Under the pieces are notes generated by a model. The model made no database searches. It worked only from the letters and a program-made list of their open reading frames with translations, and had not been told where the DNA came from. A stretch of 64,000 nucleotides of DNA, from the NCBI RefSeq assembly GCF_000269605.1, contig NZ_AKCI01000001.1:186001-250000 (forward strand). Reading direction: 5' to 3'. Origin of the DNA: Scardovia wiggsiae F0424 (lineage in GTDB: Bacteria; Actinomycetota; Actinomycetes; Actinomycetales; Bifidobacteriaceae). The translations under genes were made by a program, and so were the position numbers. Positions 10,951 to 20,443 of the stretch are shown piece after piece; the first letter of the stretch is position 1, and each line of letters opens with the position of its first letter.

Positions 10951-12441
10951 ATGAAAAACGATATCCTGGCTGGCCTTGATGAGATGCAGAGGTCTGCTGC
11001 GCTCGCGTCCGAGGGGCCGGTGCGTATCATAGCCGGTGCCGGGGCGGGGAAAACGCGCACGATCATGCGCCGCATAGCGTATGCATGCGAAAGCAGCCGG
11101 GGAAGCATGCAGTGGGATCCCAAGAAAGTGCTTGCTGTTACGTTTTCCACAAAAGCTGCCCAGGAAATGCAGGGAAGGCTGGCACAGCTTGGGGTGCAGG
11201 GGGTGCATGCTGCTACTTTCCATTCGGCTGCTTTGCGGCAGCTGCGAAGTGTGTGGCACAGCCTGAGCGATTCCCCCTTCCCGCAGGTCTGTGAGAATAC
11301 CAAGGACCTTGTGTTCAGGGCGCTTGCCCGTGCCACCGGCACTGATGTTTACCAGGATATAGAGGTCAGTGACGCTCAGGCGGAAATAGACTGGGCAAAG
11401 GTAAGTATGGTTGCGCCGTCTGATTACGGTTCGGCATGCCAGGTATCAGGCCGGACTCCGCCACTGGGGCTGGATCCGCCTGTTATGAAACGGGTTATGG
11501 AGTGCTACGAAGAGGAGAAGGCTTTCCGCAATGAGATCGATTTTAACGATATCCTGCTTATGCTGTGCCATATCCTCGATGAAGATGCTGAGCAGGCGCG
11601 CACAGTACGCGGCGGTATCGGGTGGCTGACAGTCGATGAATACCAGGACGTTTCGCCTCTGCAGCATCGGCTGACGGAGCTGTGGCTTGGTGATAACCGT
11701 AATATCTGTGTGGTGGGGGACCCGGCACAGACGATCTATTCGTTTGCCGGCGCAACCAGTTACTATCTTACGGGTTTCGCCCGGGAATTCGGCGGCCTGG
11801 CCGCTGACATCGAACTTGCCACAGACTACAGGTCTACTCAGAATATTGTAAAAGAGGCCAATAAGATACTTAAGCATTCTCCAATGCGTGATACTTACCT
11901 GCAGCTGGCTTCTGCGCGGGAAACAGGCAAGCGTGTTTCCCGGCGTGTGTATGGGGACGACCGCGATGAAGCCCGCGGGATCGTCAGCAAGATCAAGGAC
12001 CGGATAAGCCATGGGGTGCGGGCAGAAGATATTGCCGTGCTTATGCGTATCAACAGCCAGGGAATCCTGCTTGCGCGCCTCCTTAACGAGGAAAAGATAG
12101 CGTACCGTGTGCGTACAGAATCCGGATGGACAAGCAATGCTTCCCATGACTCCCTTATGAACTCTGACGGCACAGTAGGGCAGGTGAGCCTGTCGACCAT
12201 CCATGCTGCCAAAGGGCTTGAGTGGAAACATGTGTTTATTATGGGATGCAGCGAAGGGCTGATCCCTTTTTCGTCAAACCAGGAAGATGGGAACCTTGAA
12301 GAAGAACGCCGGCTCCTCTATGTGGGCATTACCCGTGCAGAAGATGAGCTGGAAATATCTTATGCACGTGCTGTCCATAAAGATGATGTTGCTGCGTCAC
12401 GGTACAGCGCTGAGCGGCGGCCCAGCCGGTTCCTGACGTGA
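10951..12441 (+). CDS. UvrD/PcrA-type SF1 DNA helicase, UvrD2-like, short form
   Basis: A 496-residue superfamily 1A helicase. Motifs in order: IAGAGAGKT (Walker A), VTFSTKAAQEM (Ia), DEYQDVSPLQ (Walker B/II), GDPAQTIYSFAGA (III), LMRINSQG (IV), LSTIHAAKGLEWKHVF (V) and LLYVGITRAEDEL (VI). It ends soon after motif VI, so the C-terminal HRDC-type extension of mycobacterial UvrD2 is absent. I chose ATG 10951 because conserved sequence begins there; an in-frame ATG at 10858 adds an unconvincing 31 residues. Likely role is 3'-5' unwinding in repair. Confidence 0.85.
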   Translation: MKNDILAGLDEMQRSAALASEGPVRIIAGAGAGKTRTIMRRIAYACESSRGSMQWDPKKVLAVTFSTKAAQEMQGRLAQLGVQGVHAATFHSAALRQLRSVWHSLSDSPFPQVCENTKDLVFRALARATGTDVYQDIEVSDAQAEIDWAKVSMVAPSDYGSACQVSGRTPPLGLDPPVMKRVMECYEEEKAFRNEIDFNDILLMLCHILDEDAEQARTVRGGIGWLTVDEYQDVSPLQHRLTELWLGDNRNICVVGDPAQTIYSFAGATSYYLTGFAREFGGLAADIELATDYRSTQNIVKEANKILKHSPMRDTYLQLASARETGKRVSRRVYGDDRDEARGIVSKIKDRISHGVRAEDIAVLMRINSQGILLARLLNEEKIAYRVRTESGWTSNASHDSLMNSDGTVGQVSLSTIHAAKGLEWKHVFIMGCSEGLIPFSSNQEDGNLEEERRLLYVGITRAEDELEISYARAVHKDDVAASRYSAERRPSRFLT

Positions 12442-12524: not shown

Positions 12525-14513
12525 TTACCCCTGTGTACTGTCAGGACTGGAGGCGGGACCCTGTGTTCCAGATCCGTGAGGATTGCCGGGATCAGTAGAG
12601 CTGCCAGGGCCGCTGGAACCGCTGGGATCATCAGGGCCATTAGGGTCGTCAGGCTCACCGGAATTGTCAAGATCGCCGGAACCACCGGAACTGCTGGAAC
12701 CATCAGGCCCATCCTTTTCAGAGCCGCTGCCTTCACTGTCAAGAAGCTGTTCAAGCTCCTTATCCCAGTCGATCGGCCCGTTCAGATCTATCTGCCCCAG
12801 GCCTTTATCCCCTGGACCTTTATCCTTCGGGCCTTCATTCCCCAGACCCCCATCCGGGTATTCCGTGTATGGGATACCATTATCCCCTTCTTTATCCGGC
12901 AGAGCTATCCCTTCCTGAGAAGCAGGGGGATCCTGGCTGTCCCGTGCCGGGCTGGATGTATTCGGTGAACCGGGACTATCAGGCTCAGGCGCTGCAGAGT
13001 TGCTATCCGGGGAAGGGCGGCCGGCGCCCCTGCCGGACCCTGTATCAGCATCATCTGCGGTGCCGGCAGTGTTATCCTGCGCATCCAATGTGTTCGATGT
13101 ATCCGGCGTGTCAGAAGGGCTGCTGTCCAAAAGTTCCATAAGGTCATCATTGAATTTCTTCGAATCTGCCGATGACTTCTCAGATAAAGCTGCAAGGGCG
13201 TCGTCAGGCATCGTCGGCAGCATATCCGGATGCGACCAGTGCCTGTCCCTTCCTGATGCCTCTTCTGCCAGCGTGATGGTTTCCCAGAGCTCTGCGGCCT
13301 CGCGCATCTTTTTAGGCCGCAGCTCAAGCCCCAGCAGGGTCTCAAACGTTTCCTGGGACGGCCCTCCGGCGGCGCGTTCGCGGCGCTGCATTTCGCGCAG
13401 CTGGTCAATATGGGGGATATGCGCCATTCCTGCACGCCAGACGATGCAATCCACCCACCCTTCAACAAATGCGAGGAGATTCTCAAGGCTATGCAGGGCC
13501 TCGCGCTGTTCGGGAGTATCGCTCATGCCAACTTTGCTCAGATCCACTGCGCCTGCGATAGAATCAGGGTTGACCTCCTGTACCTCACGCAGCTGCTCTT
13601 CCATAGCATCCAGATCAATGGTGATACCGCGTGCATACTTGTCGATCAGTGCATCGAACTGCGGCATCAGCCATGGGACGTTGGCGAACAGGCGGGCGTG
13701 GGCTTCTTCAACAAGCGCAAGGTAGGCCAGGACTTCGTTATAGCTGAGCTTAAGTTCGTCAGCGTATCTCTCAATATTTTCAGGAATGAGGGTCCCGGCA
13801 GGATTATCGAGGAGCGCGATCCCCTGGTCGAAGCCTCCGCAGATATTGCGCGCCAGCCGTCCGCCTGCCTGCCCTATCTGCATTGCATATGATGTATTGC
13901 CTAAAATAGTAATCAGCTTGCCCGGATCTTTGAGGTCATCAGGAAGCGGCATAGGGACAGGTCCGGCGAAAACCCCTGCGATCTGCCCGTCTATCTCGCC
14001 ACCCAGCCGTTCGGAAAATACTGCAGCCATAGCCTTATTCATAGATTCGGCAACAGGGGCGGCAAAGTGAGTCCATTTAGGCATGGCTTTGCCTACCCAT
14101 TCATCGCATGTGAGGACATCCAGGGTGCCCTCAGGCGGGTCAAAATCCGTGACAGAATCCAGCCACAGGTTTGCTTCCGACGCCGCAGACCTTACCTGCT
14201 GGCCGGAAACCGCACTGATCACATGGATTTTTTCGTTTTCCCGGGCGGTATTGTGCGCAATAGATGTCGCCAGTTTAATGTTGATCGGACCGCTGTTGAG
14301 CAGCTGGTTTATATCCTGCGCGGATCCCAGGCCGCTCGTACTGAACGCATCCATAAGGGAATGGACCTCCTTGGGATCGGGCAGGCCTCCAGGGGTATTG
14401 ATGATCTGCTCGCGGATCTCAGGGGGCAGCTGGGAAAGCTGCTGCCACGCCATCTCGCCCTGATAGGGGCCGAAGGAGTCGATCATCCATTGGTGCAGTT
14501 CATCTTCTGACAT
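12525..14513 (-). CDS. Zincin_2 (DUF2342) family protein, zinc-ligand motif altered
   Basis: A 662-residue protein. The N-terminal 450 residues match the actinobacterial DUF2342/Zincin_2 family (annotated as zinc-dependent metalloprotease or F420-biosynthesis-associated). At the expected HExxH site it reads VEEAH (268-272), losing the first histidine. EGW (351-353), which usually supplies the third ligand, is kept. Residues from about 450 are a Gly/Pro/Asp/Ser-rich low-complexity tail of 200 residues. AAGGAA precedes the ATG. It is adjacent to the helicase and Lon-like genes, as in other actinobacteria. Whether it is an active peptidase is open. Confidence 0.75.
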   Translation of the reverse strand: MSEDELHQWMIDSFGPYQGEMAWQQLSQLPPEIREQIINTPGGLPDPKEVHSLMDAFSTSGLGSAQDINQLLNSGPINIKLATSIAHNTARENEKIHVISAVSGQQVRSAASEANLWLDSVTDFDPPEGTLDVLTCDEWVGKAMPKWTHFAAPVAESMNKAMAAVFSERLGGEIDGQIAGVFAGPVPMPLPDDLKDPGKLITILGNTSYAMQIGQAGGRLARNICGGFDQGIALLDNPAGTLIPENIERYADELKLSYNEVLAYLALVEEAHARLFANVPWLMPQFDALIDKYARGITIDLDAMEEQLREVQEVNPDSIAGAVDLSKVGMSDTPEQREALHSLENLLAFVEGWVDCIVWRAGMAHIPHIDQLREMQRRERAAGGPSQETFETLLGLELRPKKMREAAELWETITLAEEASGRDRHWSHPDMLPTMPDDALAALSEKSSADSKKFNDDLMELLDSSPSDTPDTSNTLDAQDNTAGTADDADTGSGRGAGRPSPDSNSAAPEPDSPGSPNTSSPARDSQDPPASQEGIALPDKEGDNGIPYTEYPDGGLGNEGPKDKGPGDKGLGQIDLNGPIDWDKELEQLLDSEGSGSEKDGPDGSSSSGGSGDLDNSGEPDDPNGPDDPSGSSGPGSSTDPGNPHGSGTQGPASSPDSTQG

Positions 14514-14780
14514 GACATCCGTTCCTTAGCTAGTGTTATTCCGTTGCCGTTATCTCCGTAGGATCAGGGTCTTTGAGCGTCCGCAATATCTGTAAAGCTG
14601 CCTGCCGGACAGATATTACCGGACCTGTACCATTTGGCATCTGTGTATCAGACCGCCACTTTACCCTATTATCCTAAATCTTGAGTCTAAGTGTATCAAC
14701 TTTTAAGAATATTTTTTATTCCTGAGAATAATCTGGACAATCCAGCCAATATAGCTGTTTCAGCTTTCGGGATATCCGGA

Positions 14781-14786
14781 TATACT
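14781..14786 (+). promoter_or_regulatory. Possible -10 element for the Lon-like gene
   Basis: TATACT lies nine bases before ATG 14796 and abuts an alternative ATG at 14787. No clear -35 is seen and no proper Shine-Dalgarno fits either start, so a leaderless transcript is plausible. Confidence 0.35.
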
Positions 14787-14795
14787 ATGGGGGAT

Positions 14796-15677
14796 ATGAC
14801 AGATCAAACAGAAACAGACAGATCCCGGGCACCGCAGGCCCATCCTGCCGTTCCGCACGCGCCTCGTCATTTTGCTCCCCGATGGCGTTACTATATCGGC
14901 ATGGTCACAGTGCTGGCCTGTATGGCTCTCCTGTTCCTGCCCTGTTCTGCTTACACCATTGAATTCCCGGGACCGACAGGCAATGTCCTTGGGAAAGTAT
15001 CCAAGGCTAAAAATGCTAAAGATATGATTTCCATATCAGGCGGCAAAACCTACCGGAGCAAAGGGAAACTCCTCCTGACAACGGTCAGTGCTACAGGCGT
15101 CCCGGGGTATCCGGCAACGAATGCGCAGGTCTTGTGGGCGTGGTTCTCCAGGCATACTATCGTTGTCCCGCAGGAAGTTGAGTATCCTGCCAATCAGACG
15201 CCGGAAGAGTATCGGAAAGAATCCAGCGAGCAGATGGATCAGGCTCAGGATTCCGCCCAGAATCAGGCCCTATCTTTCCTGAGAAAAAGAGGTGTGGACG
15301 TTTCAGGCCTGAAGGTCACAATGAATGTTGATAATATTGGCGGCCCTTCGGCCGGGATGATGTATACGCTCGGCGCCATTTCGAAGCTGACCCCCGAAGA
15401 TGAGACTGGCGGCAAGGTCATTGCCGGTACGGGGACTATGGAAAAGGACGGCACGATAGGCGCTATTGGCGGGATACAGCTGAAAATGGTCGGCGCCTTG
15501 CGCGATGGTGCTGCATGGTTTATAGCCCCCAAAAGCAATTGCCGGCAGGTTGTCGGCAATGTCCCCCAAGGGCTGAGAGTGGTCGCGGTCTCTAACCTTG
15601 AAGAAGCGTACAAGGCGCTTGTGGCTATTGGTTCAGGCAAAGGCGGTTCGCTTGAGACGTGCCAGGCGGCAAAGTGA
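14796..15677 (+). CDS. YlbL-like membrane-anchored Lon-type serine protease lacking an obvious PDZ
   Basis: About 293 residues. After a short cytoplasmic part comes one transmembrane helix (WRYYIGMVTVLACMALLFL) and an extracellular region, then the C-terminal S16 (Lon) domain. The catalytic serine is in NIGGPSAGMMYTLG and the lysine in IGGIQLKMVGA. In YlbL proteins a PDZ domain precedes the Lon domain; here the chain passes straight from an Ala/Gln-rich helix to the protease domain, so PDZ appears absent. Starts at 14691, 14787 and 14796 are all possible. Actinobacterial relatives sit beside the Zincin_2 gene, as here. Confidence 0.8.
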   Translation: MTDQTETDRSRAPQAHPAVPHAPRHFAPRWRYYIGMVTVLACMALLFLPCSAYTIEFPGPTGNVLGKVSKAKNAKDMISISGGKTYRSKGKLLLTTVSATGVPGYPATNAQVLWAWFSRHTIVVPQEVEYPANQTPEEYRKESSEQMDQAQDSAQNQALSFLRKRGVDVSGLKVTMNVDNIGGPSAGMMYTLGAISKLTPEDETGGKVIAGTGTMEKDGTIGAIGGIQLKMVGALRDGAAWFIAPKSNCRQVVGNVPQGLRVVAVSNLEEAYKALVAIGSGKGGSLETCQAAK

Positions 15678-15741
15678 CGGAAGGGGCGGGATATATGCCC
15701 GTCCTCAGGCCATTTTCCATTATTTCTGATATGCTGAGCCT

Positions 15742-16164
15742 GTGTCCAATACAACTAACACCGATAACGCTGCAAGTGAATTAGGATTCCAGCCGGGGGA
15801 TATTGTCCAGGAATGGCTGTGGGATGATGATGTTGACGGCCATATCCGTGATTCTATTGAGGCTCTGACAGGAGAAGACCTCGTTGATGAGGAGTATGAT
15901 TCGGCCGTTGACGGCGTCATCGTGTGGTGGCGTGACGGTGATGAAGAGGACGAGCTCTCCGATACGATCATGGATGCGGGCGGGCTGATTGCTGGTGACG
16001 GGCTATTTTGGATCATCACACCTAAGCCGGGACGTGAGGGTGCTACCAGCGCTAATACAGTCCAGAACGCAGCCAAGACTGCCGGGATGAATGCGGGGAC
16101 ACCAGTCACGCTGAGCCCTGACTGGAACGGTATCCAGCTTCGGGCATTTGGCCGAGGGCGGTAG
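15742..16164 (+). CDS. DUF3052 family protein
   Basis: A 140-residue acidic protein starting at a GTG. LGFQPGDIVQEWLWDDDVD and VDGVIVWWRDGDEEDELSD are typical of actinobacterial DUF3052; function unknown. TATGCT at 15730-15735 ends six bases before the GTG and there is no Shine-Dalgarno, so the mRNA is probably leaderless. It marks the last gene before the 2-kb gap. Confidence 0.8.
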   Translation: MSNTTNTDNAASELGFQPGDIVQEWLWDDDVDGHIRDSIEALTGEDLVDEEYDSAVDGVIVWWRDGDEEDELSDTIMDAGGLIAGDGLFWIITPKPGREGATSANTVQNAAKTAGMNAGTPVTLSPDWNGIQLRAFGRGR

Positions 16165-16218
16165 GCATCTTAGCCGGTGGCCGGCAGGTACCTTCGTGTT
16201 CTGTCCCTGTACTTCGTT

Positions 16219-16628
16219 TCTTTTGATCCGTTGGCCCCTCAGCTATTTGGTTTCAGTTCTTTGATCTGTTGATCTTCTAACCCTTTAACTTTTTCATCCT
16301 TCAACCTTTAAAGCTTTTGGTCATTTTGGTTCTTTGATTCTTTAGCCTTTAATCTGTCAACTTTTTGATCTGTTGATCTTCTAATCTTCCACCAGCGCTA
16401 GCATTCTAAGCATCCGCGCTAGCCTTCTAATCCATTAGCCCTTTGCTTCCTTCCCCTGTCAGCTCTCTGATTTTCCAGTCCCCTTAATTTAGCCCTTTGA
16501 TCTGTTGGTCCATTGACCCGTTGATCCATGTAATCGTTTAATCCATCAATCTCTAATCTGTGTTGGTCCATTAACCGTTTAATCCATTGATCCCATTAAC
16601 TTTCTAATTCGTTAACCCTGTTAACCCT
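16219..16628 (+). repeat. Degenerate octamer-periodic array, pyrimidine-rich, consensus about CYNTTRAY
   Basis: The stretch parses into some 40 or more units of mostly 8 bases, such as CTTTTGAT, CCGTTGGC, CTGTTGAT, CCTTTAAC, CCATTGAC, CCGTTGAT, CGTTTAAT, CCATTAAC and CCATTGAT, with occasional 7- or 9-base units. One exact 21-base word occurs at 16260-16280 and 16364-16384. Frequent TAA/TGA words stop most reading frames. It is not a CRISPR: no constant repeat/spacer structure. Role unknown. Confidence 0.6.
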
Positions 16629-16773
16629 GGGGATTTCTTCCCTCTTGTTCACTACCTGACAAAACTGGGGGCGGGGTGCGAGGGAGGGCTGTGTTATGGC
16701 GGATTACGTATGTTGCGCGTGTTGTATCGCGTGTTGTATGCAGCGCGTCTGGCTGCCCTCTATGTGCGGGCCG

Positions 16774-16853
16774 GCTCACCCAACACGAAAATACGAATAC
16801 GGCTTCAGCCTGTATACTCATTTTTCGGAAACATAACTTCAAGTTGGGTGAGC
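16774..16853. repeat. Inverted-repeat element, copy 1
   Basis: GCTCACCCAAC (16774-16784) is perfectly complementary to GTTGGGTGAGC (16843-16853), enclosing 58 bases. The same arm sequence recurs at 17343-17422, but the enclosed sequences differ. No transposase or terminal duplication is evident. It may be a small RNA gene, a protein-binding pair or a mobile-element remnant. Confidence 0.55.
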
Positions 16854-17077
16854 TTCGGCCGTTGACCGCGCAAAACTGTTAAATTGGCATTGCTGTTAAG
16901 GGATTTCGACTATTAAAACATAAACCCGTCAACTAGACACATCGCTAAGGGATCGCGGATTTTAACGGATTGGCAGTAATGTGGATCGTCTACGAGATGA
17001 TTCTCCATAGTACAAGTGGTCCGTATGTTCTCCTCCCTCCAGCAGGGCCGACCCTGAGATTTCCTGAACTCAATCCT

Positions 17078-17128
17078 TCTGATTTGTAATCAGCAGGTCG
17101 ACGGTTCGAATCCGCCGCGGAGCTCCGC
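17078..17128 (+). pseudogene. tRNA 3'-half remnant, anticodon TGT (threonine-like)
   Basis: An anticodon arm TCTGA-TTTGTAA-TCAGC gives anticodon TGT. It is followed by a variable region and a T arm GACGG-TTCGAAT-CCGCC and an acceptor-like GCGGAGC. Nothing upstream supplies a D arm or a 5' acceptor strand to pair with it, so this is not an intact tRNA. Half-tRNA copies commonly mark attachment sites of integrated elements; no integrase gene remains here. Confidence 0.55.
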
Positions 17129-17342
17129 TAATACAACCCAATGTTTTCAGGCGTTGGAGGCGGGTTCGGTCGCCCGACCGATCGGTGGCCGGATTGTTTG
17201 TGCGCTCCAAGTGTGCCCCAAAACAGGTAAATCCCCCACCACAACCGGCTGCTTCGGATAATTGTGGTTCAGCAGGTCGCGCATTTAGATCGTACAGTTG
17301 GCTCACTAGTGTATCCAGCATTGTGCACCCGGCCGGGATACG

Positions 17343-17422
17343 GCTCACCCAACTCAGCGATATGAAATGGTATTTGGCATTGTTCACAGGAAGAGGTATT
17401 TGCTTCTTCGAGTTGGGTGAGC
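17343..17422. repeat. Inverted-repeat element, copy 2
   Basis: GCTCACCCAACTC (17343-17355) pairs perfectly over 13 bp with GAGTTGGGTGAGC (17410-17422), with a 54-base loop. The 11-bp core equals that of copy 1, 570 bp upstream. A partial arm (GGCTCACT) also occurs near 17299. It is followed by a purine-rich tract, not a U tract, so it is not a simple terminator. Confidence 0.55.
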
Positions 17423-17515
17423 AGGATGAGGAGGGGATGAGCGGGATGGGGGGGGGGAGGAGGGGAGAGAAGAAGGAAGGGGTGAGGGAGGATTCGATAA
17501 GTGAGCTGTTTTTCA
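17423..17515 (+). other. Purine-rich tract with a run of ten G
   Basis: The top strand is almost all G and A here, with ten consecutive G at 17448-17457. A second purine-rich stretch spans about 17758-17920. The upstream octamer array is the opposite, pyrimidine-rich. No coding signal. Confidence 0.5.
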
Positions 17516-17608
17516 TATTTGGACGGAAGCGCAGAAAAATCAGGGAATAGGGAGTGGAGAATAAAACGGGTCAAAAGAAAAAGATGAAGATAAAAGATCT
17601 AGAAGAAC

Positions 17609-17683
<75 letters not shown>

Positions 17684-17693
17684 GACTCAGGAA

Positions 17694-17722
17694 AGTCTAT
17701 CGCACTACACAGACGATGTCCA
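17694..17722 (-). promoter_or_regulatory. Promoter of tRNA-Val
   Basis: On the minus strand TGGACA (17717-17722) and TAGACT (17694-17699) are separated by exactly 17 bp. The -10 lies ten bases before the mature tRNA 5' end, as expected for a short leader. Confidence 0.7.
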
Positions 17723-18196
17723 TATGCGACACGCTTTGTGCAGGTTGAGGAGACGAATGAGATATTAAGAGGACAGAAGAAACGGAAGAAGCGGATTGGT
17801 GAGAAGGAGGGAGAAGGATGATATGGGGGCGGTAGAGCAAATGAAGGCGACGGGAGAAATGGGTGAGGAGGGCGGAGATATAGGAGATATAAAAGACGGA
17901 TGTGACGATGAAATGGAGGGGACAAGTGTGACGGTGACGGTGACGATGTGATAGGCAGGGCAGACGGCTGGCCGGTAGTTAATGACGGCGGACAGGAAGC
18001 TGGACAGGTCTCAGGTATTGAGAGGTAATGGCACCAGCAGGCTCCCCGACAAGCCTCCCGGCGGGGTTTCGTGGTTGTTCCGTGTATAAATTGAGGAATC
18101 CCGGTGCGGTTCCTGAAAAATTTGTAGGCTAAGTATCGGATATTCTTATTTAGAATGCGTAACTCTGTTTATTGTTTATCGGGTCGGGAGGCTTGA

Positions 18197-19411
18197 ATGA
18201 CTGGTGAGGAACAGGCGAGAGGGAATCGGCTTCCATTAGCCGACAGGAATAAGTGGGGCTATGACATTGATCAGGTTGACGAGTTTTTGGATCGGGCGCA
18301 TCAGCTGTATGATGCGGCCCAGCCGCAGCTTAATCAGGAAGATATTCAGAATGTCCTTTTTACCCTGGTCCGCGGCGGGTATGATATTGAGGCAGTAGAC
18401 CGTGCTCTTCTGCGCCTTGAACAGGCGGCTGTGGATAAGCAGACGTCATATGAGATTTCCAGTGAAGGCCGTGTTGCCTGGCGGACGAAAACAGTCCAGC
18501 TTGCTCAGACCCTGATGCCGCGTGCGAATGCTGGTAATGGGTACCGTTTCGCTGACGGGCACGGCAAAGAACCGTCCTATGACCGTAAACAGGTTGACAG
18601 CTTTGTGGTCAATGCTGTCACGCGCATTTGTGATGAGCTTGGCATTGAGTACCCGCAGGCGGTCAGTTCCAGTAATTTTGATTCGGACGAGGATTTTACC
18701 CCGCGTTATGTGTCTACGATCCTGTTTACGCAGCGCAAAGGGGACAGAGGCTATGATGAAGGCCAGGTTGATATGTATGTTAACCGCATTTCCCAGGTGG
18801 TTTCGCGTATCGTGTCTTTCCGCAATTTTGAAGGTGTTGATGTTAAGGAGGCGCTGGGCGGCAGTGCAGCTGACGGGGATGCCCTCCGTCCGTATGAAGC
18901 CCGCGGGCAGAATGCCCAGTATGAAGATGTCGCTTCTTTGGAAGAATCAGTTTTTGCTGCGCACCAGGCGCAGGGACAGGCGGAGGTTTCCGGCAGCACT
19001 ACAGATTCAGGTCATTCGGCAGACAGCCCCGCTCCAGCAGTTTCCGACGGCGCCGCCCCTGAAACACTGCATCCGTATGAGGGCGCGATGCCGGTATCTT
19101 TTGCCCCCTCGAGCAGCCCGCAGAGAGGTACCGATACACAGCATAAGGCGGGTCCAGGCGAAGAAACGGAGCTGATCACCGATCTTCCGCTTTCGGATGG
19201 TTCGGGCGCGGGCCATCCTGAGGGCAATACCGAAGAGGATAATGGAAACGGGGGCAATGCCGGGGAAGCTGATACAGGTGAGGACACTCAGTCCCAGGCG
19301 TCGTCCCAGGCAAACGATACCGGTACTTTCGCTCCGCAGGTCCTGCCTTTCCTTTCCGTATCGAATTCCCTCAATACAGCTCCGGACAGTTCCGGGGATA
19401 GGGAACAGTAG
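18197..19411 (+). CDS. Protein with four DivIVA-type modules and a disordered tail
   Basis: A 404-residue protein. Four copies of the short actinobacterial DivIVA-like module are visible: GYDIDQVDEFLDRA (21-34), GYDIEAVDRALLRL (61-74), SYDRKQVDSFVVNA (127-140) and GYDEGQVDMYVNRI (186-198). Residues about 215-404 are acidic Ser/Gly/Pro-rich and probably disordered. GGGAGG, six bases before the ATG, supports the start. The family (TIGR03543/TIGR03544-like) is linked to cell-pole and envelope organisation by its resemblance to DivIVA; the specific role is unknown. recO and uppS follow. Confidence 0.8.
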   Translation: MTGEEQARGNRLPLADRNKWGYDIDQVDEFLDRAHQLYDAAQPQLNQEDIQNVLFTLVRGGYDIEAVDRALLRLEQAAVDKQTSYEISSEGRVAWRTKTVQLAQTLMPRANAGNGYRFADGHGKEPSYDRKQVDSFVVNAVTRICDELGIEYPQAVSSSNFDSDEDFTPRYVSTILFTQRKGDRGYDEGQVDMYVNRISQVVSRIVSFRNFEGVDVKEALGGSAADGDALRPYEARGQNAQYEDVASLEESVFAAHQAQGQAEVSGSTTDSGHSADSPAPAVSDGAAPETLHPYEGAMPVSFAPSSSPQRGTDTQHKAGPGEETELITDLPLSDGSGAGHPEGNTEEDNGNGGNAGEADTGEDTQSQASSQANDTGTFAPQVLPFLSVSNSLNTAPDSSGDREQ

Positions 19412-19606
19412 GGAAAAGCCCGGACAGGCAGAGACAGGATGAGGATTCTGCTTCCCTGCGAGGAAGGGTGATATCCCGTCTGAAGTGTTATAGCATAATG
19501 CGGCAGGGAAAGCCGGCATACATAGGTATTCTGCGGCATACTTGATATTGTGCAGCGTGAGGTACCGGTAAGGATAAGACTGCGAGCTTGAAAAAAGGGG
19601 GTGCGT

Positions 19607-20443
19607 ATGCCTGCATACAGGGATCAGGGTATTGTCCTGCGCACTATCAAGCTCGGCGAGGCAGACCGAATCGTTACTATCCTTACGGCCAGCCATGGCA
19701 AGATCCGCGCAGTAGCCCGCGGCGTCAGACGTACAAAATCTCGTTTCGGTTCAAGGCTTGAACCATTTATGCGCGATGACCTGCTTATCGCCCAGGGCCG
19801 CCGCGAGCTTGATACAGTTTCGCAGGCAGTAGTCATTAGTGCGTATGCTCCTGAAATCATCTCGGATTATGACACTTACCTGTCGGCGAATGTTATTGTT
19901 GAGACTGCAGACAAGGCAGTTTCTGATCTGCGCGAAACCAGTATTTCCCATACGATGCAGTATCGGCTGCTTGCGGGTGCCCTTGCATCGCTTGCTGCAC
20001 GGAAGCATAAGCCTGAATTCATAGAAGCCTCATATGTCCTCAGGGCACTCAGCCTTGCGGGGTGGACGCCGCGTCTGGATGCATGTGTGGTCTGCGGCAG
20101 GCAGACGGATCTGCGTTATTTTTCGGTTGAATCCGGGGGTGTTATGTGCCCAACGGACCGCATACCTAAAGCCAGGAAGATTTCGCGTGATGCCCTGGAT
20201 CAGCTGAAAGCGTTGGCTGCAGGCGACTGGAAGGCTTTGGAGGAGCCATCCGCGGAAGGGCCCGCAGAGCATGGCCAATATGTGCATGATGTATCTTCTG
20301 TCCGGCACAGCCATGGTAACCGGGATAATGATGCCTGCGGCGAAAGCAGCCCCCCTGATGCACAGGTGAGGTCAATAGTGGAGGAATGGTCGCAATATTA
20401 TCTTGAACGTCCCATCCGCTCCATGCGCCTGATACATTCATAA
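19607..20443 (+). CDS. recO: DNA repair protein RecO
   Basis: A 278-residue RecO. The N-terminal OB fold (YRDQGIVLRTIKLGEADRIV, then ARGVRRTKSRFGSRLEPF) is clear. The zinc-binding region reads CVVCG (160-164) and GGVMCP (C181); the usual fourth cysteine is replaced. AGGGGG before ATG 19607 selects this over a GTG six bases earlier. RecO loads RecA on SSB-coated DNA and anneals strands in the RecF pathway. Only two bases separate it from uppS, so the two are probably co-translated. Confidence 0.92.
   Translation: MPAYRDQGIVLRTIKLGEADRIVTILTASHGKIRAVARGVRRTKSRFGSRLEPFMRDDLLIAQGRRELDTVSQAVVISAYAPEIISDYDTYLSANVIVETADKAVSDLRETSISHTMQYRLLAGALASLAARKHKPEFIEASYVLRALSLAGWTPRLDACVVCGRQTDLRYFSVESGGVMCPTDRIPKARKISRDALDQLKALAAGDWKALEEPSAEGPAEHGQYVHDVSSVRHSHGNRDNDACGESSPPDAQVRSIVEEWSQYYLERPIRSMRLIHS

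Follow-up and report, generated by a model that had tools for sequence, protein, structure and literature searches.

A degenerate 8-base array of purine/pyrimidine order beside a DUF3052 gene in Scardovia wiggsiae

Downstream of a DUF3052 gene in Scardovia wiggsiae F0424 lies a stretch of some 400 bases that is closed in all reading frames and visibly repetitive. What is this array, and how did it come to be there? An earlier, sequence-only reading left three options: (i) an array of protein-binding sites, (ii) a satellite grown by slippage, (iii) an element acting in chromosome structure. The window, meaning the whole 64-kb stretch analysed, covers bases 186001-250000 of a single-contig 1.55-Mb genome, and all positions below refer to it unless another contig is named.

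The array and its gap

The gap in question measures 2 kb and runs from the DUF3052 gene (15742..16164, plus strand; PF11253, E 2.1e-43) to a DivIVA-like gene on its far side (18197..19411, plus strand; PF05103, E 7.1e-6), whose protein, at 26.4 bits, narrowly misses the Pfam cut-off of 28. It contains the array, a tRNA-Val(TAC) gene convergent with DUF3052 (17609..17683, minus strand), two inverted-repeat elements and two purine-rich stretches. The region had been described as gene-free, which holds for the array itself, where no frame is open, and fails for the gap as a whole, because the tRNA-Val gene lies within it.

The array occupies 16219-16628 on the plus strand. Its identity at lag 8 is 0.458, compared with 0.295 in dinucleotide-preserving shuffles (z 7.4, reached by 0/2000 shuffles), and the autocorrelation echoes at lag 16 (z 6.0), lag 24 (z 3.5) and lag 25 (z 4.6), so that the periodicity of about 8 bases noticed by eye in the letters is borne out. 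When periods of 4, 5, 7, 8, 10, 11, 13 and 14 are scored, this stretch has the best score of the 64-kb window. A cyclic model gains 135.5 nats over composition with eight states, against 48.1 with seven and 67.7 with nine. The flanks at 16165-16218 and 16629-16760 are without lag-8 signal. Within the array, successive segments of about 100 bases give lag-8 z values of 4.4, 4.2, 1.5 and 3.9 over mononucleotide shuffles, making the third quarter (16421-16520) weak.

The array comprises about 50 head-to-tail units of about 8 bases, whose positions read Y-N-Y-Y-R-R-Y-Y and whose forms include CTTTGATC, TGTTGATC and CATTAACC. The consensus CYNTTRAY proposed earlier survives as one frequent form; the looser YNYYRRYY describes the unit better. 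The core YYRRYY occurs 42 times where 9.0 are expected (maximum 21 in 2000 mononucleotide shuffles), with 27 of the 41 intervals exactly 8 bases and a further four of 9; the spacing breaks in an irregular stretch on the same strand at 16385..16418, leaving 38 bases between the matches at 16381 and 16419. Tandem Repeats Finder returns only two short pieces of all this, 16325-16343 and 16611-16629.

The periodicity sits almost wholly in the purine/pyrimidine (R/Y) order. Recoding the array by base class gives a lag-8 z of 8.3 for R/Y, 1.6 for strong/weak and 3.0 for amino/keto, and identity at lag 8, given equal base class, is 0.59 where composition alone predicts 0.52, so letters are nearly free within their class. 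It is hardly credible that the array derives from a protein-coding repeat by decay, or that it is a structured RNA. Repetitiveness is all that speaks for either, together with a minus-strand fold slightly better than 60 mononucleotide shuffles (z -2.1). A coding repeat is contradicted by a period that is no multiple of three and by stops in each of the six frames (5 to 14 per frame), two features that the sequence-only reading had called correctly; an RNA element is made improbable by the weak folds (plus-strand z -0.9) and by Rfam, which at gathering scores finds no family except tRNA across 14000-20000.

The rest of the gap has its own peculiarities. Purine-rich simple sequence flanks the tRNA-Val gene on both sides, at 17418..17600 (plus-strand pyrimidine fraction 0.22; R/Y lag-8 z 1.4) and, between the tRNA and the DivIVA-like gene, at 17745..17990 (pyrimidine fraction 0.24; R/Y lag-8 z 0.8, lag-9 z 2.9); neither stretch has an 8-base period. 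Two such stretches in one gap suggest that the spacer is generally prone to simple-sequence growth. The 400-base windows starting at 17751 (the strongest) and 17451 show the top two G-over-C excesses of the 464 kb sampled from this genome.

Between the array and the tRNA-Val gene, a 57-base copy (17079-17135, 96%) matches the 3' part of tRNA-Thr(TGT) plus 9 bases past its end, the whole tRNA gene lying 1.1 Mb off on the contig at about 1322406-1322481; the fragment could be the attachment-site scar of a lost integrated element. A minus-strand open reading frame at 17070-17516 that ends across this fragment is probably false. The two inverted-repeat elements of the gap (16775-16852 and 17344-17421) belong to an interspersed element of 77-78 bp, consisting of CTCACCCAAC and its complement around interiors that mostly differ among copies. 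Further copies lie at 8703-9075 of L046, 1095-1172 of L072, 1021-1350 of L003 and in L190, and the element is also present in the DUF3052 gap of a sister species, G002. Arms number 21 in this genome (0 in the reversed control), 31 (2) in G002 and 3 (1) in the other sister, G001. Arm starts are 67-68 bases apart in six pairs of this genome and eight of G002; some arms have another spacing or no partner, and L190 carries three arms in one orientation followed by three in the opposite, 45-47 bases apart. In several G002 copies, judged by eye, the bases flanking the arms vary from copy to copy with complementarity kept.

Copied blocks, transitions and repair

An exact 21-base repeat 104 bp apart had been reported and is confirmed, with plus-strand copies at 16260..16280 and 16364..16384. 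The block is several units long, and shorter repeats of 11 to 13 bases are found at other distances in the array. If the pieces of the array are reordered at random, the longest repeat averages 12.6, and only 0.15% of 2000 orders reach 21; repeated 12-mers, counted with overlaps, number 14 against 2.4, a value reached by 0.15% of 2000 reordered-piece sets. Ten of those 14 fall inside the 21-mer and the other four come from shorter blocks, so the evidence for block copying leans mainly on one block. At least at the 21-mer, unit order is copied, as multi-unit slippage or unequal exchange would do.

Growth by single units is expected to leave neighbours more alike than distant units, which growth by blocks need not do. 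Neighbouring units are no closer than distant ones (mean identity 3.97 of 8, expected 4.14; 3.97 is attained in 80% of 5000 orders), and growth unit by unit is therefore not visible. Units two apart show a weak excess of likeness (z 2.1, over the 36 eight-base units only), and a 16-base founder is weakly suggested (p 0.053).

The differences between units have an unusual composition. Among 36 gapless units, seven of the eight columns keep their base class in at least 94% of units with the letters mixed, and over these seven columns transitions amount to 0.387 and transversions to 0.078 per compared site, a corrected ratio of about 11; the unit letters come from the cyclic-model parse, which may flatter column purity. 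Taken raw, without unit alignment, the lag-8 mismatches show a milder excess: 128 are transitions and 90 transversions, where composition predicts 110 and 173. How large the transition excess is thus depends on the parse. In the sample of this genome, the other gapless tandem repeats carry 68 transitions and 53 transversions (51 rows, coding and non-coding mixed and possibly overlapping), or 12 and 8 in the 20 rows whose period is not a multiple of three.

Simulations of neutral growth were compared with the array. For each setting 150 runs were kept, out of 655 to 1071 tried, by a filter on lag-8 z of 5.5 to 9. With transitions near the 68:53 of the control repeats, 1/150 kept runs matches all three R/Y measures, whichever kind of founder is used; at 75% transitions the matches rise to 7/150 with a consensus founder and 2/150 with random founders, and at 90% to 37/150 and 12/150. 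Should units be shuffled by recombination, a minimum of eight events, of which seven are transitions, might account for the high-frequency differences; at 57% transitions the chance of that outcome is about 0.08 by hand calculation.

Mismatch repair forms the background. In profile searches NucS (PF01939) is found in 3/3 genomes of the genus and MutS (PF00488) in 0/3; the same searches in 14 named control genomes are positive in 7 for NucS and 11 for MutS. According to one review (PMC8228993), NucS corrects transitions, hardly corrects transversions and does not correct indels, its loss gives a transition-biased spectrum, and most short indels are perhaps suppressed by polymerase proofreading instead. 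On that account NucS is blind to indels, and slippage loops would therefore escape its repair.

The same account lends something to the proposal that the R/Y pattern is the fossil of a period in which mutation was almost transition-only, for example because NucS failed temporarily; the simulations with 90% transitions, which come closest to the array, point the same way. That reading is nevertheless unlikely: the nucS frames of this genome and the two sisters run open for 261, 263 and 330 codons, and other tandem repeats in the sample have no such transition bias. As far as NucS goes, a present loss of mismatch repair as the source of the bias is rejected, since the gene is open over its length.

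A different and very unlikely possibility is that selection has acted over 400 bases on the R/Y order itself rather than on the letters, giving a ladder in which YYRR returns as a step every 8 bases. Its reader would be a sensor of base class, conceivably a ring that binds RNA or single strands with 8 bases per subunit; were the ladder real, short TTRAYC runs elsewhere in the family would be smaller versions of it. The transition excess may be compatible with selection on base class or with an odd mutational history, and it is a modest puzzle, partly unaccounted for by the satellite explanation favoured below.

Distribution in the genus and family

The core pattern TTRAYCNNTTRAYC has five matches in this genome, all within the array. 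Across 101 family genomes, this one included, it occurs 0-5 times on the forward strand (at most 3 in the others) and 0-4 times on the reverse, with 0-8 matches for the reversed control. A scan of the genus (464 kb of this genome and 200 kb per sister; window size 200 bases; nine periods between 4 and 16) ranks the array first under R/Y coding, at 7.84, the best other place being in G001 at 6.07. Under four-letter coding, an 11-base array of G002 equals it (6.58 vs 6.50).

It had been proposed to look for the array at the same junction in related genomes. The array is missing there in both sister species, where by eye the DUF3052 gene and tRNA-Val stand about 280 (G001) and 710 (G002) bases apart. 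It is also missing from the 400 bases after DUF3052 in 80 named loci (the best 80 of 87 found), which belong to Bifidobacterium, Alloscardovia, Pseudoscardovia and Bombiscardovia: R/Y lag-8 z is at most 2.54 in these (7.56 here) and YYRRYY occurs at most 14 times (35 here). With one genome per species as the basis, the comparison stands at the level of sister species rather than strains. Absence in sister strains was what the sequence-only reading had named as a refutation, and at the level of sister species the array is indeed absent. This speaks against a conserved function at the site and does not refute a satellite. The G002 spot has a pyrimidine fraction of 0.64 and 17 YYRRYY per 400 bases, above all 80 named loci. 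A shared ancestral array is rejected, as this spot is pyrimidine-rich yet gives no 8-base signal (z 0.27).

Elsewhere in the family, related patterns appear in miniature. Three-box runs of the form TTRAYCNNTTRAYCNNTTRAYC are found in 8/189 family genomes including this one, once in each; the seven others (7/188 genomes, one sister among them) sit at loci other than the DUF3052 site. The reversed control gives nine matches in 4/189 genomes, from which it follows that short 8-base runs are not special to the motif of the array. Four of the seven other runs were read closely: all are short, and two have a clear local 8-base signal. These two are the G001 run, with about 7 units like those of the array (best 100-base lag-8 z 5.8, compared with 5.0 here), and that of G087, with about 8 units (z 6.7); the runs of G099 and G100 have 3 to 5 units and little surrounding signal. 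The G001 run, at 1518600, is one megabase from the DUF3052 gene of that genome at 494 kb. The G087 run (contig L203, minus strand, 470-531) consists of units such as GCCTATTA and CCCATTAA and lies directly before a terminator-like hairpin, adjoining an apparent tRNA-Ser gene, both recognised by eye. That the motif is special to the family was considered and dropped, the TTRAYC runs (8/189, reversed 4/189) being too few to decide.

Short 8-base runs thus seem to arise repeatedly in the family, and small arrays recurring at unrelated loci fit recurrent slippage. Two further degenerate arrays were seen in the sisters: an 11-base one in G002 (L072, ~1240-1360; GGTTCAACAAC-like) and an 8-base one in G001 (L080, ~11260-11400; GACAGGGC-like). 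Judged by these sequence comparisons, the array occurs at this spot only, though others of its kind exist; most likely it is one large case among scattered short 8-base runs.

The same distribution bears on the idea of a binding array, in which a protein would cooperate along tandem 8-base boxes. Cooperative binding along tandem boxes is familiar from MetJ on met boxes and from the ribbon-helix-helix centromere proteins; the 8-base tandem spacing over a long stretch recalls them, and the short runs of like class at other loci (those in 7/188 genomes) could be read as further sites. Yet a base-specific box would not leave its letters nearly free within the two classes, the core pattern matches nowhere else in this genome, and the array is missing at the DUF3052 site of relatives. 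Phage and plasmid records contain no match by blastn, a weak test with the low-complexity filter on, and viral contigs contain no copy of the 21-mer. A mobile origin is rejected on the same searches, filter included. All told, a binding array is most improbable. The DNA helix repeats every 10.5 bases; a spacing of 8 is off the helix, and because the only genome match is the array itself, with no counterpart in relatives, both this option and that of a chromosome-structure element are unsupported.

More can be said for termination. The array might be a rut-like Rho-loading zone that stops the DUF3052 transcript before it reaches the convergent tRNA-Val gene: the transcript would be C-rich and G-poor, and its pyrimidine dinucleotides would recur at 8-base intervals, roughly one for each subunit of Rho. 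The transcribed strand of the array is 27% C and 13% G; when 18224 overlapping 400-base windows from the two strands of the sample of this genome are ranked by C-over-G excess, the array comes about 53rd, within the top 0.3%. The array lies 3' of a plus-strand gene facing a minus-strand gene, its pyrimidine positions tolerate C/T exchange, and the region 15600-18300 has no excess of terminator-like sites (3 vs 3.1 in shuffles). Against these points, 400 bases is longer than the usual rut site, and conservation is just as strict for the two purine columns (R 0.94 in each) as for the pyrimidines; contact with Rho would require no such purines. The array is also not the genome's usual 3' style, as the first 150 bases that follow stop codons scarcely exceed 5' flanks in pyrimidine content: 0.491 (n=104) vs 0.479 (n=130) in the sample of this genome, with standard errors of 0.006 and 0.005 on crude ORF calls. 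The sisters give 0.498 vs 0.484 (G002) and 0.489 vs 0.496 (G001). A general Rho-terminator signature is rejected, because the genome shows no clear enrichment of pyrimidines 3' of its genes. With no counterpart after DUF3052 in the 80 loci either, a Rho-loading zone is judged distinctly unlikely.

A probable cryptic satellite and its known counterparts

The probable explanation is that the array is a cryptic satellite, private to this spot, which expanded by block duplication and was then worn by point mutation. Among the three original options, slippage growth is the best supported because unit order is copied, the array is absent after DUF3052 in relatives, other arrays and runs occur in the family, and NucS is found without MutS. 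The founder may have been short and rich in pyrimidines, possibly a dimer of 16 bases resembling CTTTGATCTGTTGATC. Lying in the DUF3052/tRNA-Val spacer, where added bases would be cheap, it would have been duplicated again and again, several units at once; unequal exchange or slippage during replication is the presumed mechanism. A NucS-type repair that leaves slippage loops may have permitted this growth. Small indels and point mutations, the latter mostly transitions, would then have worn the copies. On this explanation the array appears to be without function, and positive evidence of a function was not found. If it is a satellite, it offers an example of spacer growth in a bacterium where NucS is found and MutS is not, and its transition-dominated wear may record either base-class selection or a mutation spectrum out of the ordinary.

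A literature search that included rut sites with YC dinucleotides and the heptanucleotide repeats of cyanobacteria brought up, among the papers listed, nothing closer than the systems compared here, and the array is not claimed to be unpublished. Like rut regions, it lies 3' of a gene, has C over G and carries pyrimidine dinucleotides at short regular spacing; unlike them it is longer than the usual rut site, keeps its purine pair equally well and sits in a genome without a clear general enrichment of pyrimidines 3' of genes. With the tandem operator and centromere boxes of MetJ and the ribbon-helix-helix proteins it shares the 8-base tandem spacing, but it has no fixed letters and many more units. 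Degenerate short-period repeats, namely minisatellites and cryptically simple DNA, differ from it in that its units are heavily worn and their aligned divergence is almost confined to transitions; the array resembles them in its head-to-tail units, its duplicated multi-unit block, its place in a spacer and its restriction, among the species examined, to a single locus in one.
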